From positions 1 through 24,054 of the IMG/VR virus record IMGVR_UViG_3300032116_001297: 24,054 nucleotides of DNA. One strand, given 5' to 3'. The notes beneath the pieces are model-generated. The model did not search any database, had not been told where the DNA came from, and saw only the letters and a program-made list of their open reading frames with translations. Of this stretch, positions 642 to 22,875 are shown one piece after another. Numbering within the stretch: position 1 is the stretch's first letter; every line of letters begins with the position of its first letter. The DNA comes from a virus. A program made the position numbers and the translations under genes.

Positions 642-645
642 CGCC

Positions 646-653: not shown

Positions 654-727
654 GTATTATATAGTACGTTCGTTAACTAGATTTGGATCAAACAGTGTTA
701 TTCCCCGTGTTACCGTGTATTATATAG
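653..727 (+). repeat. 12-base direct repeat in the divergent control region
   Basis: TGTATTATATAG occurs at 653-664 and again at 716-727, 63 bases apart, both on the + strand. The first copy abuts the ribosome binding site of the minus-strand subtilase and the second abuts the ribosome binding site of the + strand 54-residue gene. Each could be a -10-like element or a binding site. The second copy is part of the GTGTATA-type motif family of this window. Confidence 0.55.
715..727 (+). promoter_or_regulatory. Putative phage promoter, GTGTATT variant, upstream of the 54-residue gene
   Basis: GTGTATTATATAG begins 26 bases before the ATG at 741. This is closer than in the other five sites (33-50 bases), and a start of transcription 7-10 bases downstream would fall within the ribosome binding site AGGAG (729-733). 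The related copy at 653-664 may therefore be the one that drives this operon. No TTGACA-like -35 is visible. Confidence 0.4.
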
Positions 728-740
728 CAGGAGTATTAAT

Positions 741-905
741 ATGATTAAAAAGCAACAAATCGAAACGCAATTGGATTGCAGGGCTACAGCCGCTTTGCGA
801 AACGAAATAGTCGAAGATTTATCCAAGCCCGATAAGCCTATTAGCACGGTTTTAGAGGTAAAGGACAAGGATGAATCTGAAAACAACAACGAACAAGGCG
901 ATTGA
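741..905 (+). CDS. Small acidic protein of unknown function, 54 residues
   Basis: ATG at 741 follows AGGAG (729-733) with 7 bases between, and the frame stays open for 54 codons to TGA at 903-905. The product begins MIKKQQIETQLDC and ends in an acidic, Asn-rich tail (KDKDESENNNEQGD). No family is recognised and there is no membrane segment or signal peptide. It is the first gene of the + strand operon and overlaps the next gene by 35 bases, so the two are probably translationally coupled. The good ribosome binding site and the promoter-like motif just upstream are the main support. It may be a small regulator or a leader-type gene. Confidence 0.6.
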   Translation: MIKKQQIETQLDCRATAALRNEIVEDLSKPDKPISTVLEVKDKDESENNNEQGD

Positions 906-1647
906 GCTAGCTCGCATAGATTACGAAGACAATATAGAGCTTCTTGGCGTTTACGGGCTATGCGATGTTAACCAGCCCCTTTCTTACGCCATTAAAAATA
1001 AGACCATAACGGACTGTAATTGTTTTAGTCACGTATTTGGTAATGATTGTCGCTTTTTCTACGCTCTAGAGCAAGTCAAGAATAATAAGGTTATAAAATA
1101 CGAGCGTGGCATTGGGTACTTGGCTGATAAAAACGGTAAAACTGTTATTGTCAGAGAAATCCCAATAGCTACTGGATCAGACCCATCTAATCAATCGGCA
1201 TGCATAGGTGGATGTACGCCCTTTAGATGCACAGACTGTGATTATCTTATAGCTTATTCTACGGTTCCTCAATTATATGTTGAAAACTTATTAGAGTCTA
1301 ATTCACTAATTACGTCCATAGCCCCCTTTACGCCGCACTCTTTTGCGGTATCTGAAGACTCATTAGTTGGAAGATTAAACGATGGATTACAATCTTTATC
1401 TCTTAATAACGTTATGTTTGTGGAAAGGTTATGGAGTTCCTTATCAAGCTTTACTAAACAAATTATTCTTAAAACTAGCAAATTAGATGTTAAGAAACTA
1501 GCAACAAGCGTATTACAATTTGTTCCATCTAGTAAGTCTGGAGCCAAAAAGGGTTGCTTTATCTATGATAAGACGGACAATAATCTTAAGTATTATGATG
1601 GAGAGAAATGGAGATCTTTAGTTTGGAAGGAAGACATTGAAGAATGA
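871..1647 (+). CDS. Cysteine-rich protein of unknown function with fibre-type C-terminus
   Basis: The product has 258 residues. Nine cysteines are present, seven of them in two clusters: residues 49, 51 and 60, then 111, 115, 120 and 123 (CX3CX4CX2C). The second cluster could bind a metal. The C-terminal 30 residues (228-250, around CFIYDKTDNNLKYYDGEKW) match the pattern xxYDxxTNxLKYYDGxxWR, which is very common at module borders of phage fibre and baseplate-associated proteins. I infer a virion-associated or adhesin-like role, but no family is recognised over the first 220 residues. The start overlaps the preceding small gene, and the ribosome binding site is weak (AAGG 6-9 bases upstream), which suggests coupling. 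The stop overlaps the next start as ATGA. Confidence 0.6.
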   Translation: MNLKTTTNKAIELARIDYEDNIELLGVYGLCDVNQPLSYAIKNKTITDCNCFSHVFGNDCRFFYALEQVKNNKVIKYERGIGYLADKNGKTVIVREIPIATGSDPSNQSACIGGCTPFRCTDCDYLIAYSTVPQLYVENLLESNSLITSIAPFTPHSFAVSEDSLVGRLNDGLQSLSLNNVMFVERLWSSLSSFTKQIILKTSKLDVKKLATSVLQFVPSSKSGAKKGCFIYDKTDNNLKYYDGEKWRSLVWKEDIEE

Positions 1648-2150
1648 AAATACCCAAGAATATGACAGAACAAGAGGTGGTTCATCAAATCAATACCGTA
1701 GTCAATAGAATAGCATCTAAATATACGTTTTATGGATATGAGGTTGATGATATAAAACAAGAGGCTTTTATTATATGCATGGATGCGCTTGATAGATATG
1801 ACAATAAGCGGCCCTTAGAAAACTTCCTATCAGTACACTTATCTAATCGCTTAAAGAATTTTATTAGAGACAATTATTTTACAAAAGACGAAGAAGAAAA
1901 GAAAAAGGTGCTTAAGCCTAAGAGTTTGTCATCAGAAGAGTACATGCCGGTAAATAGGCACTCAGATAACCACGATATCAACATAGACGCTAAACAAATA
2001 CAAAAGATTTTAGACAAACACTTACCACCTAGTTATCGCGCCGACTATCTTAAACTAATTAATGATGTATATGTTCCTAAAAAGAGAAGAGAAGAAGTAA
2101 TAGAGCTTATAAAGGAATTAGTAGAAAGGTACATGGATGAAGAAGGGTAG
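1644..2150 (+). CDS. Small phage sigma-70-like factor
   Basis: The product has 168 residues. Residues 11-75 look like sigma region 2: helices around VNRIASKYTFYGYEVDDIKQEAF, then CMDALDRYD and LENFLSVHLSNRLKNFIRD. The pattern DDIKQExxxxxxDALDRYD is the usual core-binding and -10-recognition signature. After a charged linker (about 82-112), residues 115-165 form a second helical domain (ILDKHLPPSYRADYLKL through ELIKELVERY) that could be a reduced region 4. The size is like T4 gp55 (185 residues), which directs RNA polymerase to late promoters with no -35. That fits the GTGTATA motif upstream of the structural genes here. The pairing is inference. A non-sigma helix-turn-helix protein is the main alternative. 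Confidence 0.62.
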   Translation: MKIPKNMTEQEVVHQINTVVNRIASKYTFYGYEVDDIKQEAFIICMDALDRYDNKRPLENFLSVHLSNRLKNFIRDNYFTKDEEEKKKVLKPKSLSSEEYMPVNRHSDNHDINIDAKQIQKILDKHLPPSYRADYLKLINDVYVPKKRREEVIELIKELVERYMDEEG

Positions 2151-2922
2151 ACTATCTAAAGAAGAGATTAGGTTTATATCTAATAATATAGATAATCTCA
2201 CCGTAGACGATATAGCAAAAAAGCTCGACAGAGATGTTGAGTCTATAGACTCCTTTGTAAAGCGTAAGCTTAAGCGCGGACTATCTCTGGAAGAAGAGGC
2301 GGCTTTTGAATTAGAAGATCGCCCCTATTGGATAGAGCTAGAAAATCAGTTTACCTCTGAAGAGTTGGAACTATTTAAATATCACTGGACTAGAATTATC
2401 GCACAGTTCAAAGATGATGTTTTTCCTACTGAAGAACTACAGGTAGTAGATGTTATTAAGTTAGAAATACTCATGAATAGGTGCTTAAAGAGTAATAAGG
2501 ATAATCTTAATGAAATGAGCCTGCTTGAAAAACTTATTCGTGACGAGCGCGCTTTAGAAAAAGATCAGCGAGATCAAGATTATCTTATGAACCTTGAGAG
2601 ACAGATGGCGGCTCTACGGGCTAGTCAAGAAAGTCTTAACCGCGATTATCGTGAGCTACAAACAAAGAAGGCGGCGATGTTAAGAGAAATGAAGGGCACT
2701 AGAGAGCAGAGAATTAAACGACTAGAAGATAGTAAACAAAGCTTTACTTCTTGGATAGCTAGCTTAATACAAGATCCAGAGAAGATGAAACGTTACGGTA
2801 TAGAGATGGAGAAAATGAGACTGGCGATGTTGAAAGAAAAGGAACGCTTAAGCGCGTTCCATAAATATGAAGACGGGATAATTGATCAACCATTCTTAAC
2901 ACCAGATACAATTAAAGACTAA
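2137..2922 (+). CDS. Probable terminase small subunit
   Basis: The product has 261 residues. The N-terminal 45 residues form a helix-turn-helix-like unit (LTVDDIAKKLDRDVESIDSF). A Trp-containing helical segment follows (about 64-118), then a long charged coiled coil (about 130-240) rich in Glu, Lys, Arg and Gln. An N-terminal DNA-binding domain followed by an oligomerising helical domain is the general plan of small terminase subunits, which recognise phage DNA and stimulate the large subunit. The gene starts inside the end of the sigma-like gene (14-base overlap). Five genes, including gmd, separate it from the large terminase, which is unusual. No sequence match could be tested, so a coiled-coil DNA-binding protein of other function remains possible. 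Confidence 0.5.
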   Translation: MKKGRLSKEEIRFISNNIDNLTVDDIAKKLDRDVESIDSFVKRKLKRGLSLEEEAAFELEDRPYWIELENQFTSEELELFKYHWTRIIAQFKDDVFPTEELQVVDVIKLEILMNRCLKSNKDNLNEMSLLEKLIRDERALEKDQRDQDYLMNLERQMAALRASQESLNRDYRELQTKKAAMLREMKGTREQRIKRLEDSKQSFTSWIASLIQDPEKMKRYGIEMEKMRLAMLKEKERLSAFHKYEDGIIDQPFLTPDTIKD

Positions 2923-2934
2923 TTAGGAGAACAC

Positions 2935-4023
2935 ATGAAAACTGCGATTATTTTTGGAGTAACGGGACAAGATGGAAGCCACTTAGCAGACCTTCTATTA
3001 TCAAAAGAGTATAGCAAGGTAGTTGGGGTAATGCGACGATCTAGCGTTGATACAACTCAAAGAATAAAACATTTACTTTCTAATGATCGCTTCAAGCTTG
3101 TTGAGGGGGATATTACCGATTCTTATAGTGTCTCTAATCTACTTCGGAGTAACGTCGATGTAGATGAAATCTATAACTTGGCAGCGCAGTCTCATGTAGG
3201 AACATCATTCAAACAACCAGCTATTACCTGGGATATTACCGGTAAAGGCTGTATTAATATTCTACAGACAATAGTAGATCTAAATATGTTTCAGTCTAGA
3301 TTCTACCAAGCTTCTTCCAGCGAAATGTTTGGTGATTCTTACGATATTGGCCCAGATGGCACAAAATTTCAGAATGAAAATACTAAGTTTTTACCACAAT
3401 CTCCATATGCTATAGCTAAATGCGCCGCTCATTATGCAGTAAGACTCTTTAGAGAAGCGTATAGTCTTCATGCTAGTGCCGGAATACTTTTTAATCATGA
3501 AGGACCGCGCAGAGGAGATAACTTTGTAACTAAGAAAATAACAAATTGGATTGTAGATTTTCACTATTGGCTTTTGAGCAATAAGCTTGAACTAAAAGAT
3601 CTAAACTACGATACAGATTATATATACGGCAGAGTGCTTGGTGAAAACATTCCCAAATTAAGATTAGGAAATTTAGACTCCTTTAGAGATTGGGGATATG
3701 CTGGAGATTACGTTGAAGCTATGTGGCTTATGCTTCAACAAGAAATCCCAGACGATTATGTTATTTGTACTGGCAAAACTTATAAAGTACGAGACTTTTT
3801 AGACTTAGCATTTCATCGTATTGGCATAAATACTTGGTCTAATCTCGTAGTAGTAGATAAGGAGTTTTACAGACCAGCAGAAGTAGATTATTTACGTGGA
3901 GATTGCTCAAAAGCTAACGAAAAGCTTGGATGGATCCCAAAATATGACTTACCAGATTTAGTATCATTAATGATAAGTGATAGGTTAAATGAAAAACTAC
4001 CGTGTAACGCTAGACATATCTAG
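2935..4023 (+). CDS. gmd: GDP-mannose 4,6-dehydratase
   Basis: The product has 362 residues, typical for the family. It is a short-chain dehydrogenase that converts GDP-mannose to GDP-4-keto-6-deoxymannose, a precursor of GDP-fucose and other deoxysugars. Visible signatures are the NADP-binding loop GVTGQDGSHL (8-17), the early RRSS (34-37), and the catalytic set Ser128 and Glu130 in SSSEMFG with Tyr158 and Lys162 in YAIAK. FNHEGPRRG and KKITNW follow, then RDWGYAGDYVEAMW late. The usual Ser/Thr of the active site is Ser here. Compared with bacterial Gmd there is extra sequence between KKIT and LGN (residues 205-240). AGGAG lies 5 bases upstream of the start. Phages are known to carry gmd, probably to alter host surface glycans. 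Its place among packaging genes is odd. Confidence 0.95.
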   Translation: MKTAIIFGVTGQDGSHLADLLLSKEYSKVVGVMRRSSVDTTQRIKHLLSNDRFKLVEGDITDSYSVSNLLRSNVDVDEIYNLAAQSHVGTSFKQPAITWDITGKGCINILQTIVDLNMFQSRFYQASSSEMFGDSYDIGPDGTKFQNENTKFLPQSPYAIAKCAAHYAVRLFREAYSLHASAGILFNHEGPRRGDNFVTKKITNWIVDFHYWLLSNKLELKDLNYDTDYIYGRVLGENIPKLRLGNLDSFRDWGYAGDYVEAMWLMLQQEIPDDYVICTGKTYKVRDFLDLAFHRIGINTWSNLVVVDKEFYRPAEVDYLRGDCSKANEKLGWIPKYDLPDLVSLMISDRLNEKLPCNARHI

Positions 4024-4237
4024 AGTGTTTGACAAAATCAAACATTTAATATTAAGGGCTTATAATTCACCATTTCCTACCATTTTTATATCAGCTAATG
4101 ATCCAGACGAGGTCTGTAGGCTTGCTTTTGATCAATTAATAAAAATGATCATGGACCAAAACCCCTCCATTAGCATGAGAATTCTGTGTAGAAAACTTAA
4201 AAGAGAATGTAGAATAGATAAAATAGAGCTTCTATGA
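3989..4237 (+). CDS. Small basic protein of unknown function, 82 residues
   Basis: The product starts MKNYRVTLDISRVFDKIKHL and ends with a basic helix (MRILCRKLKRECRIDKIEL). It looks like a compact alpha/beta fold with no signal peptide or membrane segment. The start lies 35 bases inside the end of gmd, and the stop overlaps the HNH gene start as ATGA. This favours a real, coupled gene, although the ribosome binding site is weak. I do not recognise the family. Position before two nucleases and the high Lys/Arg content allow a nucleic-acid-binding accessory role, as inference only. Confidence 0.6.
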   Translation: MKNYRVTLDISRVFDKIKHLILRAYNSPFPTIFISANDPDEVCRLAFDQLIKMIMDQNPSISMRILCRKLKRECRIDKIELL

Positions 4238-4494
4238 AAAGAAACTATGATGATCCAGCTTATACGGCTTTTAGAAAAGCTGTTATTAAAAGAGATGGGA
4301 ATAGGTGTATGATGCCAGGATGTGGATACAACAGAAAACTACAGGTACACCATATTAGAAAGTGGTCTACCGCCTCTTCATTGAGATATGAAATATCTAA
4401 TGGGATTAGTTTATGTCCAAATTGCCACAAATCCATAAAGGGAAAAGAACACCACTATGAAACTTTATTTATGGAGATTATAAATGGCCTATAA
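4234..4494 (+). CDS. HNH endonuclease
   Basis: The product has 86 residues and is a compact HNH/McrA-type nuclease. The zinc-binding pairs are Cys25/Cys30 (CMMPGC) and Cys61/Cys64 (CPNC). The catalytic core is His39-His40 (VHHIRKW), Asn56 (SNGISLC) and His65, with His73 further on. HNH proteins next to the terminase are common in phages, where they can work with the large subunit during packaging. It is complete and free-standing and does not interrupt another gene, so a homing role is less likely. The start overlaps the preceding stop by 4 bases. Confidence 0.9.
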   Translation: MKRNYDDPAYTAFRKAVIKRDGNRCMMPGCGYNRKLQVHHIRKWSTASSLRYEISNGISLCPNCHKSIKGKEHHYETLFMEIINGL

Positions 4495-4984
4495 ACAAGC
4501 TCCACATTTTACAGTTATTAAAGACACAAGAGAGCAAGATGGATACTTTTTTAGCGCATTTAATACGTGCGCCGGAATGGTAGAGCGTAAGCTTGATACT
4601 GGAGATTATACCATACAGGGATTAGAAGACAAGGTGTGCATAGAGCGCAAGGGGTGTGTAGAAGAATTGGCTGTAAATCTAGGTCAAAAAAAATATACAT
4701 TTCTTGACGAGATAGAAAGAATGGCATCTTTTCCGCATAGATTTATAGTTTTAGAATTTTCATTAGAAGACTTGGTTAAATTCCCAGCCGAAACACGTAT
4801 TCCAATTAAGAACAAGGCTTCAGTAAAGATAACTGGAAAGTACATGTTGAAGTGTCTAATAGAGTTTCAAATTTATAATAATATCAATGTACTGTTCTGT
4901 GGGGATAAATATAATGCGTTCTTAGCGGTTAGTAGCATCTTTAAAAGAATCAACGAAATGTACACCATAGGGAGAAAAGAATGA
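4484..4984 (+). CDS. ERCC4 (XPF/Mus81-type) nuclease domain protein
   Basis: The product has 166 residues. Motifs in order are DTREQ (14-18), DTGDYTI (38-44) and IERKG (53-57), the GDYxnERK core of ERCC4 nucleases, which cut branched or flap DNA. The classic motif is ERKx3D. Here the residue after the three-residue spacer is Glu60 (ERKGCVE), a conservative change that should be checked for activity. The rest is an alpha/beta domain (FPHRFIVLEFSLEDL and following), with no helicase or HhH domain visible. GGAG at 4473-4476 precedes the start, which overlaps the HNH stop by 11 bases. A job in trimming or resolving branched DNA before or during packaging is a reasonable inference. Confidence 0.85.
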   Translation: MAYKQAPHFTVIKDTREQDGYFFSAFNTCAGMVERKLDTGDYTIQGLEDKVCIERKGCVEELAVNLGQKKYTFLDEIERMASFPHRFIVLEFSLEDLVKFPAETRIPIKNKASVKITGKYMLKCLIEFQIYNNINVLFCGDKYNAFLAVSSIFKRINEMYTIGRKE

Positions 4985-5625
4985 TGGCTGAACCAGAACT
5001 ATTAAAAGATTTTCATGACTATGGCGCTAACATAGCATCCAGAGAAATATTTTTACATAATCATTATCACACAGAGGACAATTCTAATCCCGGTGTTGAA
5101 TATAGAATGTCCAATACTTTTCTCAAAAATCTCAGAGCATTAGACACCAGATCAGATCAGCCCATTATTATACATATGCAGAGTATAGGTGGTGAATGGG
5201 ATGACGGCATGGCTATATATGACGCAATTACTATGTGTAGATCTTATGTTACCATTATTGCTTACGGGCAAGCCTCTTCAATGAGTAGCATTATATTGCA
5301 AGCTGCTGATTATAGACTTCTAACGCCCAATACGCACTTTATGTGCCATTTTGGGTCCAGCAATATCAATATGGATTATCTTAGTGCCATGAATTACGCT
5401 GATTATGAAAAGAAAATGTGCGATGTTATGTTTAATATCTACGCTAAAAGATGTGTTAATGGGTCATTCTTTTATGAAAAGTTTGGCAAAAAACCGAGCG
5501 AAAAACAGGTTAAGCAATTCTTGATTAGAAAGTTTAAGTCTGGCGATTGGTATATGCATTCAGATGAGGCTATTTACTATGGATTTGCTGATAAAATTAT
5601 AACTAGCTGGCACCCACTTGCATGA
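4981..5625 (+). CDS. ClpP-like serine protease
   Basis: The product has 214 residues, the size of ClpP. The family triad can be placed: Ser100 in GQASSMSS (ClpP GQAASMGA), His123 in FMCHFGSS (ClpP MIHQPLGG) and Asp189 in SGDWYMHSDEAIYYGFAD (ClpP ERDxxxxxxEAxxYGLxD). SIGGEWDDGMAIYDAI (68-83) is the conserved oxyanion-side segment. Thus all catalytic residues appear intact. No signal peptide is seen. In many phages a ClpP-fold enzyme is the prohead protease, but here a separate prohead protease lies after the portal, so this one is either a second maturation protease or acts on host proteins. The ATG overlaps the previous stop, and its own stop overlaps terL as ATGA. Confidence 0.88.
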   Translation: MMAEPELLKDFHDYGANIASREIFLHNHYHTEDNSNPGVEYRMSNTFLKNLRALDTRSDQPIIIHMQSIGGEWDDGMAIYDAITMCRSYVTIIAYGQASSMSSIILQAADYRLLTPNTHFMCHFGSSNINMDYLSAMNYADYEKKMCDVMFNIYAKRCVNGSFFYEKFGKKPSEKQVKQFLIRKFKSGDWYMHSDEAIYYGFADKIITSWHPLA

Positions 5626-7607
5626 GTAAATCTAAGCTAAAGATTATAGACGAGGCTTGGTTAGGTCTAGAGACAATAGAGACAGACCTATTTAATCCAA
5701 TGTCTATATTAAAGTCTTCCGATGATGACTTTCATCTTAAGCTTTCTTGGTTAATGAGTAGGCCAGACTACCTTTCTTTTTTTGCTAACCATATTCTAAA
5801 TATACAATTGCTTCCGTCCCAGAGCTTAATTATAAAAGAGCTATGGGAAAGAAAATTTCCAATGCTTATTGCTAGTCGAGGATTTGGTAAATCATTCAAA
5901 TTGTCTGTATATTCTATGCTTAGAGCATTAATGCTTCCTCGTAGAAAAATTGTTATTGTTGGCGCAGCGTTTAGGCAGTCTAAGGTAGTTTTTGAATATA
6001 TGGAAACAATTTGGAGAAATTCTCCAATGTTAAGAGATATGTGTGATGCAGATAGTGGTCCCCGTAGAGATACTGATAGATGTGTTATGCGTATTAATGA
6101 TAGCATAATTACATGTTTACCACTTGGTGATGGTCAGAAAATTAGAGGTCAAAGAGCCAACGATATTATTGCTGACGAATTCGCATCTATTCCTAGAGAT
6201 ATTTTTGAGAACGTTGTAGCTGGCTTCGCTGCGGTCAGTGCTGATCCGGTTGAAAATGTAAAAAGATTAGCAGCACAAAGTAAAGCTAAAGAGCTGGGAG
6301 TAGAAATTATAGCAGAAGAAACCCCAAAAGACCAAAAGGATAATCAGATTATCTTGTCTGGAACTGCTTATTATGACTTTAATCACTTTGCTACATACTG
6401 GAAAAAGTGGCAGTCTATTATAAAGAGTAGAGGAGTTCAGTCTAAATTAAGAGATGTTTTTAACGGAGAAGATCCGCCCGAGAATTTTGATTGGAGACAA
6501 TATTCTATTATAAGAATGCCATATGAATTACTTCCACCCGGATTCATGGACGCAGACCAAGTTGCCAGATCTAAGGCCACCGTTCATGCGGGTATTTACC
6601 AAATGGAATATGGAGCTTGTTTCACAAGAGATTCTCAAGGCTTTTTTAAGAGATCGCTTATAGAATCTTGCGTGATAACAAAAGACTCTTCAATTAAAGA
6701 TACTAAGGGAAATGATATACACTTTGAGGCTTCTTTAATGGGAGATCCAAATAAAAGATATATCTTTGGAGTTGACCCAGCCTCAGAAGTAGACAATTTT
6801 AGCATAATTGTACTAGAAGTTAATTCAGATCATAGAAGAATTGTTCACTGCTGGACAACAACAAGATCAGAACATAAAGAACTTGTTAAAAAGGGTTACT
6901 CAAACGAAACAGATTTTTATTCTTATTGCGCTAGAAAAATAAGAGATTTGATGGTTCTGTATCCATGTATTCATATTTCAATAGACGCTCAAGGTGGTGG
7001 CATAGCTGTTATAGAGTCTCTACACGATCAAGACAAGATCAGAGAGGGAGAGCTACCAATCTGGCCAGTTATAGAAGATGATAAACCAAAAGATACTGAT
7101 GGAGAGCGAGGTTTACACATTATAGAACCCTGCCAGTTCGCTAGACACGATTGGCTGGCAGAAGCTAATCACGGAATGAGGAAAGATTTTGAAGACAAGG
7201 TGTTATTGTTCCCATATTTTGATACAATATCATTAAGCCTATCTAACGCTGAAGACTCTATAAAAAATAGAATGTTTGACACGCTAGAAGAATGCGTTCT
7301 AGAAATAGAAGAATTAAAAGATGAGTTATCTATGATTCAGATGACTCAAACTAATAGCGGAAGAGACAGGTGGGACACGCCAGAAGTTATAGTTGGTACT
7401 GGCAAAAAGAGCAAAATGAGAAAAGATAGATATTCTGCTTTATTGATGGCAAATATGGCGGCTAGAGTTCTACAGCGCACACCAACCCAAGAAGCATATC
7501 AGTTTTATGGAGGTTTTGCTACCGGTGGACATGCTCAGAAAAATCCTTCTGAAAAACTCTATACTGGACCAAGCTGGTTTGTAGAACAAATGAAAGATGT
7601 GTATTAA
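5622..7607 (+). CDS. terL: Terminase large subunit (packaging ATPase and nuclease)
   Basis: The product has 661 residues, the length of T4 gp17-type subunits. The N-terminal motor has Walker A ASRGFGKS (84-91, Lys90), Walker B DIIADE (181-186) and the coupling motif SGT (246-248). The C-terminal RNase H-like nuclease has acidic residues at Asp385 (FGVDPAS), Asp455 (SIDAQGGG) and Asp602 (KDRYSALL). All key positions are intact. Between Walker B and SGT is a charged stretch (about 210-241). The enzyme pumps DNA into the prohead through the portal and cuts the concatemer. It is coupled to the ClpP-like gene by an ATGA overlap. A promoter-like GTGTATT motif lies across its stop codon. Confidence 0.97.
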   Translation: MSKSKLKIIDEAWLGLETIETDLFNPMSILKSSDDDFHLKLSWLMSRPDYLSFFANHILNIQLLPSQSLIIKELWERKFPMLIASRGFGKSFKLSVYSMLRALMLPRRKIVIVGAAFRQSKVVFEYMETIWRNSPMLRDMCDADSGPRRDTDRCVMRINDSIITCLPLGDGQKIRGQRANDIIADEFASIPRDIFENVVAGFAAVSADPVENVKRLAAQSKAKELGVEIIAEETPKDQKDNQIILSGTAYYDFNHFATYWKKWQSIIKSRGVQSKLRDVFNGEDPPENFDWRQYSIIRMPYELLPPGFMDADQVARSKATVHAGIYQMEYGACFTRDSQGFFKRSLIESCVITKDSSIKDTKGNDIHFEASLMGDPNKRYIFGVDPASEVDNFSIIVLEVNSDHRRIVHCWTTTRSEHKELVKKGYSNETDFYSYCARKIRDLMVLYPCIHISIDAQGGGIAVIESLHDQDKIREGELPIWPVIEDDKPKDTDGERGLHIIEPCQFARHDWLAEANHGMRKDFEDKVLLFPYFDTISLSLSNAEDSIKNRMFDTLEECVLEIEELKDELSMIQMTQTNSGRDRWDTPEVIVGTGKKSKMRKDRYSALLMANMAARVLQRTPTQEAYQFYGGFATGGHAQKNPSEKLYTGPSWFVEQMKDVY

Positions 7608-7614
7608 TTATTGG
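7599..7614 (+). promoter_or_regulatory. Putative late promoter before the portal gene
   Basis: GTGTATTAATTATTGG overlaps the terL stop codon and begins 46 bases before the portal ATG at 7645. The distance matches the sites at 12831, 16823 and 22860 (45-50). It carries T in place of A at the seventh base, so it is a weaker match. No -35 is seen. Confidence 0.45.
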
Positions 7615-7615
7615 T

Positions 7616-7635
7616 AATCCAATTACAATCCAATT
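7616..7635 (+). repeat. Tandem 9-base repeat in the portal leader
   Basis: AATCCAATT occurs at 7616-7624 and 7627-7635, two bases apart, directly before the portal ribosome binding site (GAGG at 7636-7639 region). It would lie in the 5' leader if transcription starts at the 7599 motif. It may affect translation, or be chance in AT-rich DNA. Confidence 0.35.
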
Positions 7636-7644
7636 GAGGTAATC

Positions 7645-9735: not shown

Positions 9736-9752
9736 CGTGCAAATCTCTTTTT

Positions 9753-9768
9753 GTGTATATTATTTTTG
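9753..9768 (+). promoter_or_regulatory. Putative late promoter before protease/scaffold gene
   Basis: GTGTATATTATTTTTG begins 33 bases before the ATG at 9786. It has the exact GTGTATA heptamer and no -35. Because the motif itself begins with GTG, an automatic gene call would start the protease here and extend it by 11 residues. The ATG at 9786 is the better start. Confidence 0.6.
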
Positions 9769-9785
9769 AGAGGCACACACCAATA

Positions 9786-11237: not shown

Positions 11238-11257
11238 TTTAAACAGGAGAAAAAACT

Positions 11258-11757: not shown

Positions 11758-12765
11758 ATGCCAATTAATAAAAGACCTAGCGATGAGTTTATCGCTCTCC
11801 TACGTAAGTCAGGGGATGCCGATGTGAATGTTGCTGCGGCTGCTCAGCATGAGTTTGCCAAGGCTCTAGAACTACCCCTTCGTAAGGGCGTTCTCGTTGG
11901 TAACATTCTTGGTAACATTTTCGAAACCATTAATGTTGAAGCCGGTTCTACAACAGAGTATCCTCTTGATCTAGTTTCTCCCGGCCTTGAGGGTGAGCAT
12001 GTCGCTTACACCAATCCTGGCCACGGTAGAATTCCAGAAAGATCTGTTGAGAGCGATTATGTGATGATCCCAACATATAGCATCACATCTTCTGTAGACT
12101 ATCTACTTCGCTATGCTCGCGAAGCCAGATGGGATATCGTTGGTCGCGCCATGCAGGTCATGGAAGCCGGTTTTACAAAGAAGATGAACGATGATGGCTG
12201 GCACACACTTCTAGCTGCTGGCGTTGATCGTAACATCCTCGTTTATGACGCTGATGCTACAGCCGGTCTTTTCAGCAAGAGACTAGTTTCTCTTATGCAG
12301 ACCGTAATGCGTCGTAACTCTGGTGGTAATAGTGCTTCTGTGGGCCGTGGTCGTTTAACTGACCTCTACGTTAGTCCAGAAGCTCTAGAAGATGTTCGTA
12401 ACTGGGGTCTAGACCAAGTTGATGAAGTAACACGAAGAGAAATTTACACCGCTGCTCCAGGTAGCGCTGTAATCACAAGAATCTTCGGCGTCAATCTTCA
12501 TGATCTTGACGAACTAGGCGAAGGTCAGGAATATCAGAACTTCGTAACATCGGATCTCGGTGGCGCTCTACAGTCTAGCGATCTAGAACTCGTTGTTGGT
12601 CTTGACCAGTCAACCAGTGATAGTTTCGTAATGCCCGTTAAGGAGCAACTCCAAGTATTCGAAGATCCAACCCTACACCGTCAGCAGCGCGCTGGCTACT
12701 ACGGTTGGTCAGAACTTGGTTTCGGTGTTCTTGATAACCGAAGAGTAATTCTAGGTTCTTTCTAA
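11758..12765 (+). CDS. Major capsid protein (HK97 fold)
   Basis: The product has 335 residues. AAAGGAG upstream is a strong ribosome binding site. Features of HK97-fold capsid proteins are the N-terminal helical arm (1-40), the following beta-rich E-loop region (55-110), the long spine helix near WDIVGRAMQVMEAGFTKKM (124-142), and an A-domain ending in a conserved-looking strand stretch (RAGYYGWSELGFGVLDNRRV, 311-330). The place after protease, scaffold and decoration genes and before the terminator is standard. Codon use is the most biased of the window (many CTA/CTC/CTT Leu and CGT Arg, frequent C-ending codons), consistent with the most abundant virion protein. Exact domain borders are my estimate. 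Confidence 0.9.
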   Translation: MPINKRPSDEFIALLRKSGDADVNVAAAAQHEFAKALELPLRKGVLVGNILGNIFETINVEAGSTTEYPLDLVSPGLEGEHVAYTNPGHGRIPERSVESDYVMIPTYSITSSVDYLLRYAREARWDIVGRAMQVMEAGFTKKMNDDGWHTLLAAGVDRNILVYDADATAGLFSKRLVSLMQTVMRRNSGGNSASVGRGRLTDLYVSPEALEDVRNWGLDQVDEVTRREIYTAAPGSAVITRIFGVNLHDLDELGEGQEYQNFVTSDLGGALQSSDLELVVGLDQSTSDSFVMPVKEQLQVFEDPTLHRQQRAGYYGWSELGFGVLDNRRVILGSF

Positions 12766-12777
12766 TCTAAGATTAGA
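12761..12777 (+). other. Short perfect hairpin across the capsid gene stop
   Basis: TCTAATC, loop TAA, GATTAGA gives a 7-base-pair stem spanning the stop codon of the capsid gene, just upstream of the terminator. There is no following T-run, so it is not a terminator by itself. It could protect or process the 3' end, or help ribosome release. Confidence 0.4.
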
Positions 12778-12797
12778 GTTCTAGAAATCAGATTAAG

Positions 12798-12829
12798 GCC
12801 ACCCTCATTTTATTGGGGGTGGCTTTTTT
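12798..12829 (+). terminator. Intrinsic terminator after the major capsid gene
   Basis: GCCACCCTC (12798-12806), an 8-base loop, and GGGGGTGGC (12815-12823) form a 9-base-pair stem with one G-T pair, followed directly by six T (12824-12829). This is a textbook rho-independent terminator and the clearest in the window. It closes the head operon. The GTGTATA motif begins two bases after the T-run. Confidence 0.92.
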
Positions 12830-12830
12830 C

Positions 12831-12846
12831 GTGTATACTAAACTAG
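12831..12846 (+). promoter_or_regulatory. Putative late promoter of the fibre operon
   Basis: GTGTATACTAAACTAG begins 50 bases before the ATG at 12881 and two bases after the head-operon terminator. TATACT could serve as a -10 element. The place of a -35 is occupied by the terminator stem and shows no TTGACA. The leader ends TAATTAGGAGAAAATT before the ATG. Confidence 0.7.
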
Positions 12847-12880
12847 AAGAAGTCTATGCGACTCTAATTAGGAGAAAATT

Positions 12881-13573
12881 ATGGCAGCATTATCGGATTA
12901 TTTGGAGTCGGGTCTACTTAATCATATCTTTAGAAATACAGCGTTTAATAGACCCTCTACTATTGCAATTGCTCTTACTAGTGGCGTTCCACTAGATTCA
13001 GATTCTGGTTCTACTATACCAGAATTACCCTCTGGCGTCAACAGAGGAACCAATTTCGTTACAACAAACTATAAAAGAATTAATTTAGGTAATCCAGCTA
13101 CTGCTGGTAATAATGTCTGGAATGCTGTTGGAGTAGATGATACTACAGTTTTCTCTGTTTATGGAACAAGTTCGTCTGGAGCAACCGTTGGTCAAAGCGG
13201 TTATTTCTACCCACTCTATTTAAATCAGTCTACGGCGTTAACAGCCTCTAATGGATTTACTCAATCATATAGATTTAGAGAATTTCCCAATGTAACATTC
13301 CACGCCCCAACAAACCTACAGCAAACAGCAATGAGTGGCGATCCCGGTTATGCTAAGTATGATGGAAATGGATTTATAAAGAATTCTTCTCAGATAGTAT
13401 TTGATACCGCCCTAACAGATTGGGGATGGGTTTCTGGCATAGCCATTGTAGATACTGCTAATTATGGTTCTGGTAATTTATTAATGTATGCAAAGATAGA
13501 AAATCCACGATATATTTATACTGGCGATAATATTAAGTTCGACATTAATTCTTTAGAAATAAGTTTAAAGTAG
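12881..13573 (+). CDS. Phage tail/fibre-like protein of the short-fibre type
   Basis: The product has 230 residues. It starts MAALSDYLESGLLNHIFRN with TIAIALTSG next, the opening of a common phage family whose members begin LSDYxExxLLxHxFRxTxF and continue with a LYVGLxT-like strand. Near the end SQIVFDTALTDWGWVSGIA (168-186), with IVDT and GSGNLLMYAKI following, matches the FPTATxDWGTVTHxxIxD ending of that family. A middle insert of about 60 residues (87-150) is not typical. The family is annotated as tail fibre or virion structural protein. The role is otherwise open. It heads the fibre operon, with TAATTAGGAGA as ribosome binding site region. Confidence 0.75.
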   Translation: MAALSDYLESGLLNHIFRNTAFNRPSTIAIALTSGVPLDSDSGSTIPELPSGVNRGTNFVTTNYKRINLGNPATAGNNVWNAVGVDDTTVFSVYGTSSSGATVGQSGYFYPLYLNQSTALTASNGFTQSYRFREFPNVTFHAPTNLQQTAMSGDPGYAKYDGNGFIKNSSQIVFDTALTDWGWVSGIAIVDTANYGSGNLLMYAKIENPRYIYTGDNIKFDINSLEISLK

Positions 13574-13574
13574 A

Positions 13575-16784: not shown

Positions 16785-16788
16785 TAAC

Positions 16789-16849
16789 TATGTGGACTCC
16801 AAGAGAGAGCGATAGGGATTGAGTGTATACTTATATGGATTTCCACATA
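16789..16849 (+). repeat. Inverted 8-base repeat flanking a promoter motif
   Basis: TATGTGGA (16789-16796) and its exact reverse complement TCCACATA (16842-16849) lie on either side of the GTGTATA motif at 16823-16838, with 45 bases between. It could fold the leader RNA or be a two-site operator. Chance is possible at this length. Confidence 0.35.
16823..16838 (+). promoter_or_regulatory. Putative late promoter before the connector gene
   Basis: GTGTATACTTATATGG begins 45 bases before the ATG at 16868. It has the exact heptamer with TATACT in the -10 place and no -35. It would start transcription inside the fibre block, so connector and second-fibre genes have their own supply of RNA. Confidence 0.65.
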
Positions 16850-16867
16850 TTTTAACGGGAATTTTAT

Positions 16868-17374
16868 ATGCAGTGGCAAGAACAAGCTAACATAATGGTC
16901 AGACACCTTATAAATGACGTAGATTCGTCAAATTATAAGTACACAGACGATAGAATAGATTCTGCCGTTTTAGTAGCAGCTAAACTTGTAGTATTAGAAC
17001 TTGATTTTAATAATCAGTACAGCATTAATGTGATTGAGCGCACGATTTCTCCAGACCCAATATCTGATGATTATTTTATGAATTTACTAGTATTAAAAAC
17101 TGCTGTAGTAATATTAGGTGGAGAGGTCAAAACTGAGGCTTCAAATGCTATATCTATTAAAGACGGACCATCTGCTATAGACTTGAGGGGAGTTTCTTCG
17201 ACTTTATTAGCATTATATCAAGATATATCCAAGAAATACGACGATTTAGTTTCTGACTACGGATATCACGGCTCTACCGGTCAGGCTATTCTTGGTCCAT
17301 ATTCTCCCGGAAGTGACTATGTGACACGTACAAATTCAGATCACGATTTTAGAAGCAATTATTTTAGATACTAA
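16868..17374 (+). CDS. Probable head-tail connector (adaptor) protein
   Basis: The product has 168 residues, mostly helical. The N-terminal part (QEQANIMVRHLINDVDSSNY, then YTDDRIDSAVLVAAKLVVLE) matches the pattern of phage head-tail adaptors: a helix starting a partial repeat, a YxDxxIxxAxxxAAxL run, then a second helical pair ending in VKTEASNAISIKDGPSAID. The C-terminal region is Gly/Tyr/Ser-rich and probably extended (residues 125-168). Adaptors sit under the portal and join the tail. It lies between two fibre genes, which is unusual, but has its own promoter-like motif. The family assignment is from overall shape, with no single diagnostic residue. A tail-completion role is the alternative. 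Confidence 0.55.
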   Translation: MQWQEQANIMVRHLINDVDSSNYKYTDDRIDSAVLVAAKLVVLELDFNNQYSINVIERTISPDPISDDYFMNLLVLKTAVVILGGEVKTEASNAISIKDGPSAIDLRGVSSTLLALYQDISKKYDDLVSDYGYHGSTGQAILGPYSPGSDYVTRTNSDHDFRSNYFRY

Positions 17375-17385
17375 TGGAGGATTAA

Positions 17386-18324
17386 ATGGCTATTTTATCA
17401 CAAGCACAGATTAAGGCTAATATTCAAGGTGAATTGGCCGATAATAACGCCGGTCTTATATCAGCTTATGATGTTCGTCATAACATGGAAGACCTTGTTG
17501 ATTCTATAAATCAAATTGTAGCTAGTGGAGACTTTGATGTGTCCACACCATTTACTGGAAGCAATGTTAGATTTCAGAAGCTAATTATAGCAGGATCTGG
17601 TATTAGTTTTCCAAATGCAGAGACTCCTGGAATTCAGTATGAGCCTTATCCAGGTCCAGGAAGTATTCAGCATAATCAGTTGGGAGGATTAGCCGTAGGG
17701 GATCCACACTTACAATATTTACCACTAAATGGCGTAAGAGTAATGTCTGCCAACCTTGGACTTGGTAACAATTGGATAAACTCTAGTGGAGCTTCAGACA
17801 TTGTTAGTAGTAGTAATAGGGGGCTTCAATTTCAAACTCAAACCACTAATACTGGCATAGTAGAGCAAGTCAAAGTAGGTTCTAATACAAGATTTGTTTT
17901 TAATACAGATAACTCTGTAATGTCTACGGCAAAAGGTGTAGCCAAGGCTTGGATAAGCTTTGATGCTAGTGGAGTAGACGGTTCTCCACAAGTATACTCA
18001 TCTTATAATGTAAAAGAATTACAGAAAATAGGTGTTGGTAAATTTAAAGTAATATTTAATTCTGGCATTTTAAGAAGCAATAATTATGTAGCACTGGGTA
18101 ATAGTAATTCTAGAGGCACTTCTAACAGTCCAGAAGATTTTGATCTAAATACAGTGGGCATTGTTGCTAGAAATGGCGATGACGCTTCTGTTCTTAGAAA
18201 TATGACGTTCTGCGTTCTAAATGACGGCAATCAGTTCGTAGATGCCGCACTTAATGACATTGTAGTATACGGATTAGCTCCTAATGAATCTAGCGGAGTG
18301 CCACCAGTAGTAACTGTTCTTTAA
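17386..18324 (+). CDS. Second fibre protein with shared N-terminal anchor
   Basis: The product has 312 residues. Residues 1-46 repeat the N-terminal module of the 1069-residue fibre (ILSQAQIKANIQGELADN, then LISAYDVRHNMEDLVDSI). Residues about 85-110 include a DPHLQYLPLNG unit often seen in fibres. The C-terminal half from about 186 (AKAWISFDASGVDG, then SYNVKELQKIGVGKFKVIF) matches a widespread phage tail-protein domain with the consensus AKAWVNFxGTxxxxIRxSYNVSSIxxxGxGxYTxxF. Thus it is a mosaic of an anchor, a linker and a common tip domain. GGAGG lies 7-8 bases upstream of the ATG. The role is a short accessory fibre or tip, probably trimeric. Confidence 0.8.
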   Translation: MAILSQAQIKANIQGELADNNAGLISAYDVRHNMEDLVDSINQIVASGDFDVSTPFTGSNVRFQKLIIAGSGISFPNAETPGIQYEPYPGPGSIQHNQLGGLAVGDPHLQYLPLNGVRVMSANLGLGNNWINSSGASDIVSSSNRGLQFQTQTTNTGIVEQVKVGSNTRFVFNTDNSVMSTAKGVAKAWISFDASGVDGSPQVYSSYNVKELQKIGVGKFKVIFNSGILRSNNYVALGNSNSRGTSNSPEDFDLNTVGIVARNGDDASVLRNMTFCVLNDGNQFVDAALNDIVVYGLAPNESSGVPPVVTVL

Positions 18325-18342
18325 TCCTGTTAGGAGTATATT

Positions 18343-20268
18343 ATGTCCCAGAACAAAATAAAAATATCTGATAGAATAAAAGAAATCAGTTATACAATGG
18401 GGACCGGTAACTTTTCCCTAAATGGGGCAGTTGCCGGATTTAGCTCCTTTGGTTCATCTTATTCTAATAATGATTCTTTATTTTACGCAGTTACTGATGG
18501 ATCAAGATATGAGATTGGTTCTGGATTATTCAAAACCGGCCCAATTAACTATATCGTTAGATTCCCACTAAAAAGTTCCAATAGCAATAATAGAGTAGAC
18601 TTTCCAGAGGGCGTAAAGGAAGTCTTTGTTACATATCCAGCAACCCACGCTGTATATATGGGTTCTGGTATAGACGGCTTAAGCACACCTTCTCAAAATG
18701 GTATTGCTTTCTGGTCATCTAGTAATACTTTAGATTATGATTCATCTATAGTTTGGGACAAGACATTCAAAAGACTAGGCGTTAACCATCCAACTCCAGA
18801 CTACGGGATTCATCTTGGTGGTAGTGGTCCAGAATCAGTCGTTAAAGCTTCTGGCTTTATGGTTGGAAGTTCTGGCATATATTTTCCTCCAAATAATGAT
18901 TATGCTGGTGGCGTTCAGTTTAGTCATTACGAAAAGAACAAATTAGATAGTCAAGCTCTTAGCGAAGGGAAAATTGGTCAACTTACTGGTACTAGTGCCG
19001 TATTTGATCTTAGCGGCGTGGCTAACCAATACATTCTATTTAAACCACAAAACGCTGGATTAGTCCTTGCTGGTCCACCAAGCGGGTGCGTTGCTCCATG
19101 TTCTCCAGCGTATCCAACATTTAGACAATTAACTATAGACGATGTTCCCGGTATATCATCTTTGTCTGGCATACTTAATAACAAGATTGTTACATTAATT
19201 GGCACTACAAATTCTGCCATAGTGTCAGTTTCTGGGTTATTAAACACAAAGATCAACGATGTGTCTGGTATTTTATCTGCTAATCAAGGAATTCCAGATG
19301 GAGATAAGGGAGATATATTAGTTACAAATACTGGAACTACATGGACGATTGATGCCAATGCTATCAATTCTACTAAATTAGCAAACTCTTCTGTTACGCC
19401 TCAGAAATTGAGCTTTAATAAGGCGTTAACTAATATTGTTGGAGGAAGACTAACGTTGACTTCTAATACTCCAGTAACTAGCTCTGACGCCACATCTAGC
19501 ATTGTTTACTATACCCCATACGTTGGCAGTTCTATTTGTTTGTATAATACATCAAGTGCAAGTTGGGACATTTTAGATTTTACACAAGCGTTTTTATCTT
19601 TAACCGGCTTGACATCTGGGAAAAATTATGACGTTTTCGCTTATAATAATAATGGAACTGTAACTTTGGAGCTTGGCACAGCTTGGTCTACTGATACCAC
19701 AAGAGCTACAAATTTATCCACACAGGACGGCGTTTATGTTCTCTCTGGAAATTTAAGCCGAAGATATCTTGGAACTATTCGTGCCACAACAAGTAATACT
19801 ACAGAAGACTCTCAAGCAAAAAGATTTGTTTGGAATATGTATAATAGAGTAAATAGATCTTTAAGAATATTGTCTTCTGCTGGCCCTTGGACATATAATG
19901 GAACATCTTGGAGACTACTAAACGCAGTCTCTTATCCAGTAGAAGTGGTTCAAGGATTATTTACAAATTCCGTAGCTCTAAACGCTGGCGTATTATTTAC
20001 AGCCGCCCAAACTAGTCCCACTGTTTTATACAGCTTTGCTATTGCTAAAGATTCTACTAGCGCGCCATTTATGGGAACCAGAATATCAAATATCAACGAT
20101 GCTACAAATGAACAACTATCAGTAACATTGTTTGATAATCCTGGTCTTGGATATCATTATTATACTTTACTAGAAAAGGGCAATGGGGCCGTCACATCAG
20201 CATACGCTCTGTTTGGATCAAATGCTAGCGATTATTTTGGTGGTATTCAAGGCTCTTGGGAGTGCTAA
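18343..20268 (+). CDS. Third fibre/tail protein, mosaic
   Basis: The product has 641 residues. The N-terminal domain (1-60, KISDRIKEISYTMGTGNFSL, then AVAGFSSFGSSYSN and YAVTDGSRYEIGSG) matches a domain common in phage virion proteins (DRVKETTxTxGTGxxxLxGAVxGFQxF). The middle has fibre-type repeats. Residues 365-505 (GGRLTLTSNTPVTSSDATS, YYTPYVGSSICLYN, then TTEDSQAKRFVWNMYNRVNR) match a second widespread fibre tip domain. The C-terminal 130 residues are a separate beta-rich segment. The gene therefore combines three modules known from different phages. AGGAG precedes the start. A receptor-binding or tail-surface role is inferred. Confidence 0.8.
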   Translation: MSQNKIKISDRIKEISYTMGTGNFSLNGAVAGFSSFGSSYSNNDSLFYAVTDGSRYEIGSGLFKTGPINYIVRFPLKSSNSNNRVDFPEGVKEVFVTYPATHAVYMGSGIDGLSTPSQNGIAFWSSSNTLDYDSSIVWDKTFKRLGVNHPTPDYGIHLGGSGPESVVKASGFMVGSSGIYFPPNNDYAGGVQFSHYEKNKLDSQALSEGKIGQLTGTSAVFDLSGVANQYILFKPQNAGLVLAGPPSGCVAPCSPAYPTFRQLTIDDVPGISSLSGILNNKIVTLIGTTNSAIVSVSGLLNTKINDVSGILSANQGIPDGDKGDILVTNTGTTWTIDANAINSTKLANSSVTPQKLSFNKALTNIVGGRLTLTSNTPVTSSDATSSIVYYTPYVGSSICLYNTSSASWDILDFTQAFLSLTGLTSGKNYDVFAYNNNGTVTLELGTAWSTDTTRATNLSTQDGVYVLSGNLSRRYLGTIRATTSNTTEDSQAKRFVWNMYNRVNRSLRILSSAGPWTYNGTSWRLLNAVSYPVEVVQGLFTNSVALNAGVLFTAAQTSPTVLYSFAIAKDSTSAPFMGTRISNINDATNEQLSVTLFDNPGLGYHYYTLLEKGNGAVTSAYALFGSNASDYFGGIQGSWEC

Positions 20269-20271
20269 TTT

Positions 20272-20769
20272 ATGATAAGTTATTTACACAATATGATTAG
20301 TAGTATAGTACCTATTGAGGGTCTATCAACAGCAGATGACGGTTCTATAATAGTACATTATATTGATACTCCAACTCCAGAGCAGTATCTTCAAATAAAT
20401 GCTATACTTAATAGCTTAGATTTACAGTTAGCCAAGTTCAATAAGCTAGAGGAACTTGAACAAGGTTGGAAAAACAGTATCGCAAGTGGGTGGGAAACTC
20501 CAGAAGGCTGGAAGTTGGGCTTAGACACACAAGATGTTACATTATTAACTGGAGCTTTTATATTAGCAAAAGAAGCTGCCGACGCTGGGCTTACTAATTC
20601 AACTAGTATTATTGATACCGCTGGCGAACCACATCAGCTAACCATTCAAGAACTAACTTCTTTAATGTTACAATACGGAAGTGCTAGAGCCACCCTTAGT
20701 GCTGAGTATGCTAATAAGAAACACGCCATACACAGCGCTACATCTATTTCAGAATTGGAATCAATATAA
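20272..20769 (+). CDS. Fibre-assembly-like protein (DUF4376-type C-terminal part)
   Basis: The product has 165 residues. The C-terminal 110 residues (56-165) have a helical pattern shared with DUF4376-like proteins, which occur after fibre genes: EEL then WETPEGWKLGLDTQDVTLLT, AFILAKEAADAG, IDTAGEPHQLTIQELTSLML. It directly follows the third fibre (3-base gap), the usual place of a fibre chaperone. The N-terminal 55 residues are variable, as expected if they meet a particular fibre. The ribosome binding site is modest (GGGAG). A chaperone or a small tail-tip protein are both possible. I lean to chaperone. Confidence 0.6.
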   Translation: MISYLHNMISSIVPIEGLSTADDGSIIVHYIDTPTPEQYLQINAILNSLDLQLAKFNKLEELEQGWKNSIASGWETPEGWKLGLDTQDVTLLTGAFILAKEAADAGLTNSTSIIDTAGEPHQLTIQELTSLMLQYGSARATLSAEYANKKHAIHSATSISELESI

Positions 20770-21251
20770 TGCCAGTATATGTTCCAGAAAGTGTTTTTGA
20801 TAAATACTATGATGTAATAGACTCCACCTTTGATATTTTTGGAGTAACATGTCAATTAGTATCTATAAATAAAGTGGAAGAACTAGTTGTTGATCCAGAC
20901 AATAATGTGCCAGAGAAAAATTCTATTAATGCCCACAGAGTACGAGGTGGTGATTATGAGCGTGGACATAAAATTGTAAAAGAAGTCGAAGTACTAAAAG
21001 ATATTAAGCTAAAAGTATATTGGGATGCTAGACAGTGGATTGGCGTTGGCGGAAACATACAAGTGCCAGACGGTTCTATTCAAACGATAGGATTCATGAA
21101 AGATTTACCACTAGTACTTAATGCTAAATCACTAATAGTTCATAAAAATATTAAAGAGTATAAAGAGTTAAGATTTGAGAGAATGGGCGAGCATACACCT
21201 ATGGGGTTAAGACAAGACAGATACTTTGCCTGTATGTGGAGAAGGGTGTAA
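20769..21251 (+). CDS. Probable connector/neck structural protein
   Basis: The product has 160 residues, beta-rich with a basic central stretch (RVRGGDYERGHKIVKEVEVL). A recognisable segment is YYDVIDSTFDIFGVTCQLVS (13-32) and a late WDARQWIGVGGNIQVPDGSI. I do not recognise a named family. The ATG overlaps the previous stop by one base (TAATG), so the gene is coupled. Its neighbours (two more structural genes, then the probable tail tube) suggest a head-closure or stopper protein. That is inference from position and size. Confidence 0.5.
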   Translation: MPVYVPESVFDKYYDVIDSTFDIFGVTCQLVSINKVEELVVDPDNNVPEKNSINAHRVRGGDYERGHKIVKEVEVLKDIKLKVYWDARQWIGVGGNIQVPDGSIQTIGFMKDLPLVLNAKSLIVHKNIKEYKELRFERMGEHTPMGLRQDRYFACMWRRV

Positions 21252-21883
21252 TGACACTTTCTATTAGACTTGTAGAAACAGAAAAGCAAATTACTAAAAA
21301 TATTAATTTAGCAATAGCCGATGTATTAACCCAAAAAATAAGATCTCAACAAAATTGGATACTATCTGAATTAGTCAAAATTGTACCATCTTGGATTAAA
21401 GCTCAGCCAGAAATACAGTCTTTACAATCTTACAGTACTGGATCTTTAGTGGCTTTATTTGGAATTCCTGGAGATACTAATTCAATAATAGAATCGATAT
21501 GTGCCTCAGTCGCAAATTCTATTAGTTTAAAATTTACTCCATTTAAAGCAAATCTAACTGGCGGATTAGAAATATACTTTCAACCATCTAATTTTGCTAA
21601 TTTATTGGCTTTACCAGAGGGCCATGTGAACATTAATAATGGAGATTTACACTGGCTAGATTGGCTATTAACGAAGGGCGACACTATTATCGTGGCTAAT
21701 TATAGTTACAATCCTCAAACTGGACTTGGACGATCTAATTTGGGAAACATGTTACCCGGTGGAGCTTTTAGAATTCCACCCCAATTCTCTGGTACAAATA
21801 CTGACAACTTTATTACTAGAGCGTTAATTGGTTCAACTCAAGAAACGGCCATAACCTCAATTATAAAGAGAGCTTTAGCTTAA
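21251..21883 (+). CDS. Probable tail-completion/neck protein
   Basis: The product has 210 residues from ATG 21251. The same frame could be read from a GTG at 21236 (five residues longer), but the ATG has GGAGAAGG (21238-21245) at a fitting distance, while the GTG is inside that ribosome binding site. N-terminal helices (ETEKQITKNINLAIADVLTQ) precede a central domain (LHWLDWLLTKGDTIIVANYS), then RIPPQFSGTNTDNFITRAL near the end. The pattern of a helical start followed by a W-rich strand segment and a C-terminal RxPPxFxGTxxDNFxTRAL ending is one I associate with phage neck or tail-completion proteins, without a firm family. It overlaps both neighbours by one base. Confidence 0.5.
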   Translation: MTLSIRLVETEKQITKNINLAIADVLTQKIRSQQNWILSELVKIVPSWIKAQPEIQSLQSYSTGSLVALFGIPGDTNSIIESICASVANSISLKFTPFKANLTGGLEIYFQPSNFANLLALPEGHVNINNGDLHWLDWLLTKGDTIIVANYSYNPQTGLGRSNLGNMLPGGAFRIPPQFSGTNTDNFITRALIGSTQETAITSIIKRALA

Positions 21884-22854
21884 TGGACCACCTAAACTTA
21901 AAAGGATTTGATAATGTATTTTCTACAACTCTAAATAATGAGTTGCAAGATAATATTATTGAATTTTTAGATTGGGCCTTGTTACAAAAGGGAAATTACC
22001 AAAATGTTTCTCTGGGAGAGGCTTCTTTAAGGGGTGGAGATTATAGTAGATTAAAATTATCTTCTAATAAAAACTTTCCTAGCGGATTAGCCTGGGAAGG
22101 ATTTAGAAAAAACTGGGTCTGGCAAAGTGGGGTATCTTTTAATCCGCCACCAATTGTTGGGAATAATCATAGCCACCCTGGAATTTCTGGAGTTTATGTA
22201 AATAATACCTTTGTCCCATCTTCCGCTAGTGGTCAATATTCTCACAAAGTAGACTATTTTAACGGGCGTGTCTTATTTAATAACCCAATTCCCACTGGAT
22301 CAATTGTTAAAGCTGAATATAGCTATAAATATATTAATATATTATATGCTAATAGTTTACCCTGGATAAAAGAAATACAATACAGAACATTAGACGCCCC
22401 ATCTAACTTTAATACTAATAATAAGAATGAATATGCTCTATCAGCAGAAAGCAGGGTTCAATTACCAGCTATAGCTGTAGAAATAGTTCCCAGAAGGACT
22501 GTTCGTGGATATCAGCTTGGTGGAGGTCAAACGGTAGAAACCGACGTTATATTTCACTGCTTAGCTGAAGACGAATTCACTAGGAATAAGTTAGTAGATA
22601 TTATATCACTACAAAACGAAAAAACAATACATATGTTTAATAGTAACGCCATAGCGGATTCCGGGGCGTTTCCTATGGACAATATGGGAGTGCCGGTTTC
22701 TGGAGCTTTAAGATATCCAGAGCTAATCGATCTATTTTATAGAGGAAAACTGAGATTTAAAAATTCTACAGTTCAAAATATGGATTTAATTAACAGCAAT
22801 TTTTATGCTGGTATAGTGAGATTGACGGCTGAAACGATTGAGGTCACTATATAA
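21883..22854 (+). CDS. Probable tail/neck structural protein
   Basis: The product has 323 residues. It begins with a helical stretch (NNELQDNIIEFLDWALLQKG) and is beta-rich afterwards (YSHKVDYFNGRVLFNNPIPT, IVKAEYSYKYINILYANSLP). FHCLAEDEFTRNKLVDIISL (225-244) is a clear helix. No signal peptide, membrane span or enzyme motif is seen. The gene ends just before the promoter-like motif preceding the probable tail tube and is coupled to the previous gene by a TAATG overlap. Its likely role is in the neck or at the tail junction. It may instead be a baseplate-type protein. Confidence 0.5.
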   Translation: MDHLNLKGFDNVFSTTLNNELQDNIIEFLDWALLQKGNYQNVSLGEASLRGGDYSRLKLSSNKNFPSGLAWEGFRKNWVWQSGVSFNPPPIVGNNHSHPGISGVYVNNTFVPSSASGQYSHKVDYFNGRVLFNNPIPTGSIVKAEYSYKYINILYANSLPWIKEIQYRTLDAPSNFNTNNKNEYALSAESRVQLPAIAVEIVPRRTVRGYQLGGGQTVETDVIFHCLAEDEFTRNKLVDIISLQNEKTIHMFNSNAIADSGAFPMDNMGVPVSGALRYPELIDLFYRGKLRFKNSTVQNMDLINSNFYAGIVRLTAETIEVTI

Positions 22855-22859
22855 ATTTC

Positions 22860-22875
22860 GTGTATATCTAAATAG
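22860..22875 (+). promoter_or_regulatory. Putative late promoter before the tail-tube gene
   Basis: GTGTATATCTAAATAG begins 47 bases before the ATG at 22907. It has the exact heptamer and no -35. The leader carries TTAATTAGGAGAGAATTA, very like the leaders of the gene at 12881 and of gmd (TAATTAGGAGA in all three). Confidence 0.65.

Follow-up and report, generated by a model that had tools for sequence, protein, structure and literature searches.

Genes and GTGTATW sites in the window

The window, meaning the whole 24,054-nt stretch of DNA analysed here, is a fragment from IMG/VR, where its relatives are numerous. It contains a terminase operon that includes a small sigma factor gene, a capsid operon, and copies of a short element, GTGTATW, at the following positions.

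715..721, + strand: candidate late promoter element GTGTATT, 26 b 5′ of ATG 741
1644..2150, + strand: gene for a 168-aa phage sigma factor (Sigma70_r2 in Pfam, E = 8e-8, passing the cut-off)
5622..7607, + strand: terminase large subunit (PHROG terminase, E = 2e-23), part of the operon headed by the 715 element
7599..7605, + strand: candidate late promoter element GTGTATT, 46 b 5′ of ATG 7645 (portal-like gene)
9753..9759, + strand: candidate late promoter element GTGTATA, 33 b 5′ of ATG 9786 (scaffold-like gene)
11758..12765, + strand: major capsid protein (PHROG major head protein, E = 2.5e-4, with position and conservation), part of the operon headed by the 9753 element
12795..12829, + strand: intrinsic terminator 3′ of the capsid gene, 13-pair stem, the strongest in the scan
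12831..12837, + strand: candidate late promoter element GTGTATA, 50 b 5′ of ATG 12881, right behind the capsid terminator
16823..16829, + strand: candidate late promoter element GTGTATA, 45 b 5′ of ATG 16868
22860..22866, + strand: candidate late promoter element GTGTATA, 47 b 5′ of ATG 22907

All six copies lie where the initial annotation had placed them, all on the + strand, and the spacing of 26–50 b to a start codon that it gave agrees with the distances to the next ATG listed above. The 715 element heads the operon that holds both the sigma gene and the terminase gene. The 7599 element shares bases with the 3′ end of the terminase gene, in which GTG TAT TAA encodes V, Y and stop, and it ends in T because of this overlap; coding constraint may contribute in part to the conservation of the site. 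The GTG of the 9753 element can be read as the start of the longest ORF, and ATG 9786 is probably the true start. The T-run of the capsid terminator adjoins the 12831 element with a single C between them, a distance of one base and not two as had been described. An exact GTGTATA inside a gene, of which none had been seen by eye, is present at 6716–6722 on the − strand, antisense in the terminase gene. The labels connector, tail tube and portal found no support in PHROGs or Pfam, and the gene at 12881, labelled a fibre gene, matched a head-protein PHROG instead. At the left end of the window (3–647, − strand), a subtilase gene (Peptidase_S8, E = 1e-26) is divergent from the structural operon and is cut by the contig end.

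The number of GTGTATW copies in the window is not above chance (7 observed, 7.6 expected), and the window-only count was rejected as evidence. However, six of the seven copies lie 20–60 b 5′ of a gene start, positions that make up 4% of the + strand (raw P = 5e-10), and this placement ranked top among 158,254 one-degenerate 7-mers. The signal is one of placement, not of copy number; from the genome-wide count that had been suggested, the placement before starts stood while the bare number did not.

Placement and conservation of the element in related phages

Searches with the capsid and terminase yielded 158 loci, and after removal of overlapping records 147 sequences including the window were scanned. 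Every 7-mer was ranked by its concentration 20–70 b ahead of starts without assuming the motif, gene calls being simple ATG ORFs on contigs that may be fragments. TGTGTAT ranked first of all 7-mers (278 of 476 upstream of starts, 10.5 expected) and GTGTATA second (221 of 353, 7.8 expected), and the reverse complement of GTGTATA was not concentrated before starts in the same 147 loci (2 of 353). Within clade 2 (capsids ~66% identical), GGTGTAT came first and GTGTATA second, and in five long contigs taken alone GTGTATA was the top 7-mer (36 of 106, 2.0 expected). Rather than occurring as often inside genes as before them, the motif was confined to gene starts in both the 147 loci and the five long contigs.

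The individual sites are also conserved. GTGTATW was kept in 96–100% of distinct clade-1 relatives upstream of four genes, namely 741 (site 715, 32 of 33), the portal-like gene 7645 (site 7599, 106 of 107), the scaffold-like gene 9786 (site 9753, 87 of 87) and 12881 (site 12831, 54 of 56), and upstream of twelve other genes in just 0–6% of distinct relatives. The 16823 site was kept in five of six clade-1 and 14 of 15 clade-2 distinct relatives, and an equivalent of the 22860 site lies ahead of the orthologue in contigs G010, G007 and G012. When upstream regions were retained only if less than ~75% alike, the element was present at 114 of 118 (24/25 for gene 741, 25/26 for 7645, 45/45 for 9786 and 20/22 for 12881), compared with 0–2 each for eight other genes in the thinned set. 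In these comparisons, the same operons retain the element although the flanks have diverged. The original observation of the motif is thereby confirmed as real and is much stronger than the window alone shows.

A logo of 178 distinct sites reads TTTTTGTGTATA(A/T)T followed by a weak TnGA ~7 b on, and a −35 is not seen in it, which bears out the absence of a −35 hexamer reported for the window. The distances from site to start form two classes, 25–30 b and 45–55 b. The base ahead of GTG is mostly T in clade 1 and G or A in clade 2; as this base varies with orthologous position, it provides no independent evidence of coevolution between sigma factor and promoter and was rejected as proof of it. 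No description of GTGTATA as a phage promoter was found in the open-access literature.

A region-2 sigma factor encoded in the terminase operon

The 168-aa product of 1644–2150 consists of region 2 (residues 20–77), a variable linker and three C-terminal helices. Region 4 was not detected in the Pfam search, with no match at E ≤ 1. In an alignment of 31 relatives of the window sigma region 2 is nearly invariant, and the alignment and a structure model place a disordered linker and the three helices after it. Foldseek matches of the model in the PDB were mostly sigma factors, among them region 2 of E. coli sigmaE on the −10 strand, all with E > 0.05. A homologue was present in 22 of 22 contigs searched (16, then six more), covering both clades. 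The clade-2 sigmas are ~33% identical to those of clade 1 and mostly 200–245 aa long; those examined (L292:461-1114 and others) have, after region 2 and ahead of the C-terminal helices, an insert rich in cysteine (RPDKPCLTC...C...C) that is not found in clade 1. A search of 12 contigs for the gene of the RNA polymerase beta subunit, in which the control worked, found none. Neither the window sigma nor the capsid had a match among the 50,697 phage records of a collection of isolated phages, and MAG matches did not assign a host, being inconsistent among SAR202, Alphaproteobacteria, Chitinophagia and Flavobacteriales.

The sigma operon starts behind the element, and in the relatives examined 671–1026 b lie between the element and the sigma gene. 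The relatives were also checked for a conserved promoter of the sigma70 type serving this gene or its operon; none was found, and the idea that the operon is driven by one of its own was rejected. This result is a point against the reading preferred below; our guess is that read-through or a weak early promoter supplies the first sigma.

By association with the element, the 1644–2150 product is the likely reader of GTGTATA. The main rival is a second sigma-like protein (~158 aa), encoded just upstream of the replication block in six clade-1 contigs (among the loci are L246:8954-9424, corresponding to G010:28954-29427; also G012:58463-58936, G011:121459-121932 and G007:22895-23377). It gives weak Sigma70_r2 and Sigma70_r4_2 signals and a sigma-like structure model, and a GTGTATA site lies directly 3′ of its gene. 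However, it was not found in eight clade-2 contigs (153–244 kb) that share the promoter element, its gene is outside the structural cassette, and the logo lacks the −35 that one would expect a region-4 sigma factor to use. We consider it improbable that this protein reads the late promoter.

Two probable promoter classes along long contigs

In the window, sigma70-type sites were no commoner than in shuffled sequences (76 versus 69.7). Along the five long contigs, where a sigma70-type promoter was counted if it had at most one mismatch, the structural block contained 35 GTGTATA-type sites and no sigma70-type promoters, whereas 22 and 35, respectively, were found outside it (Fisher p = 1.8e-10). 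In the 167-kb contig G010, seven GTGTATA-type sites stand before the structural genes, which occupy 71–142 kb on a single strand, and a 41-kb block encoding RNR, a UvsX-like protein, DnaB, primase and PolA has one site at its extreme front and none listed within; polA is preceded by a TTGACT-17-TATAAT promoter. The element is found ahead of structural operons and differs from the early promoters, in the manner of late promoter classes generally.

The claim that the motif precedes structural genes holds, but the motif is not restricted to them: among ten site-downstream genes tested, four encode HNH-type endonucleases and one a thioredoxin-like protein, genes that lie outside the structural block. 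HNH-type endonuclease genes with their own GTGTATA site are present in G010 at 12933, 15362, 156267 and 165174. Several other features of these contigs were recorded. In the early sigma70-type promoters, the spacer that separates TTGACA from TATAAT often contains a common word, GCCGATA or CGATA (in G010 in the early arm, for example at 142287 and 154882; in G012 at 26328–48598). DNA polymerase I of G010 (53611–57470) is divided over two ORFs with a 227-aa gene in between, and in the structural block of the same contig (81626–99606) there are ORFs of exceptional length, 3738 and 2257 aa.

As GTGTATAAT includes a TATAAT-like hexamer, host RNA polymerase with a host sigma factor might read the element as a −10 that needs no −35, possibly helped by a phage activator. 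Yet these genomes do have classical TTGACA/TATAAT promoters, which serve regions other than the structural block and are missing from it, the TG that an extended −10 normally carries is shifted by one base in the element, and a region-2-only phage sigma is conserved alongside it; we give this reading a slim chance. That the element instead works in another way, for example in RNA processing, within a leader or as a regulator binding site, is very unlikely: the fixed distance classes ahead of starts would suit such a role, but the element lies at operon starts and directly behind a terminator, not ahead of internal genes, and no Rfam family was found in the window.

Comparison with known phage sigma factors

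Late genes of phage T4 are transcribed with gp55, a region-2 sigma that uses a −10-like element with no conserved −35 (PMC7892883), and phiEco32 gp36 is a sigma without region 4 whose middle/late promoters have a single element, tAATGTAtA, and no −35 (PMC8948821). The window sigma resembles gp36 in being small and in that region 4 was not detected. Both systems have single-element promoters without a −35, TGTATA is common to the two elements, and the phiEco32 element lies ~45 b ahead of starts, a distance also seen here. Nevertheless, GTGTATA(A/T)T does not match tAATGTAtA, gp36 is encoded outside the late cluster and the window sigma inside the terminase operon, the capsids are unrelated, and the genomes of the present group are 130–240 kb. 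With gp55 the window sigma shares region 2 and the proposed use of a −10-like element without a −35; the elements differ. In T4, a C-terminal motif and gp33 couple the system to the sliding clamp.

The PHROG of gp36 is phrog_1740, to which the window and clade-2 sigmas show weak matches (E = 2e-4 and 4e-4), and the sigmas of both clades had no match to phrog_234, which contains gp55. Profile alignment by hhalign gave no confident result for either protein: for gp36 the probability was below 6%, and neither pairwise nor profile alignment was confident; for gp55 it was 4%, and no profile match extended beyond 31 residues. Because of the weak match to phrog_1740 and the lack of one to phrog_234, the window sigma is not filed as gp55 and is perhaps a distant relative of gp36; by analogy, it would work like both. 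SaPh711_gp47 of phage 7-11 is similar in that a phage sigma steers the host polymerase to late genes, but it has region 4 and its promoter has two elements, GTAAtg-(16)-aCTA (PMC8948821).

A proposed late switch

Taken together, the conservation of the element at the same operons, its confinement to gene starts, the exclusion of sigma70-type promoters from the structural block and the presence of a region-2-only sigma alongside uphold the initial proposal that these sites are late promoters of a dedicated class lacking a −35. Across this large group of uncultured phages from aquatic sources, GTGTATA heads capsid and tail operons and most probably serves as the late-gene start signal, where "late" refers to the gene content of the operons. 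The reading that we prefer, with a probability of roughly 80%, is that GTGTATA is a late promoter made of one −10-type element, and that host RNA polymerase reads it when equipped with the phage sigma of 1644–2150.

Under the proposed switch, host RNA polymerase would use its main sigma to begin with the early and replication genes, transcribing them from TTGACA-16/17-TATAAT promoters. The small phage sigma, which has region 2 and in which region 4 was not detected, would be made next and would direct the host core enzyme to promoters that require no −35 hexamer. This holoenzyme would recognise and melt the GTGTATA element, and transcription, presumably late, would begin a few bases 3′ of it, at about +12 to +16 from the motif start (6–8 bp past the element in the gp36-type system), so that the structural operons would have short leaders. 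Because the element also heads the sigma operon, the switch should be self-reinforcing once it has been thrown.

A more far-reaching version is doubtful. It would make these proteins a separate sigma family that has only region 2 in common with gp55 and gp36 and reads a GTG-fused −10 without a −35; being made from its own promoter type only, it would sustain the switch by itself, and in the clade with the larger genomes the acquired cysteine-rich, possibly metal-binding insert would hold upstream DNA or polymerase in place of region 4.

Switches of this kind are already known, unlike the proposed GTGTATA promoter and its probable sigma. The sigma gene and the short element would form a testable two-part switch from uncultured phages, with which the late operons of uncultured relatives could be annotated from sequence alone, and the region-2-only sigmas are a natural set for asking how polymerase starts without contact to a −35.
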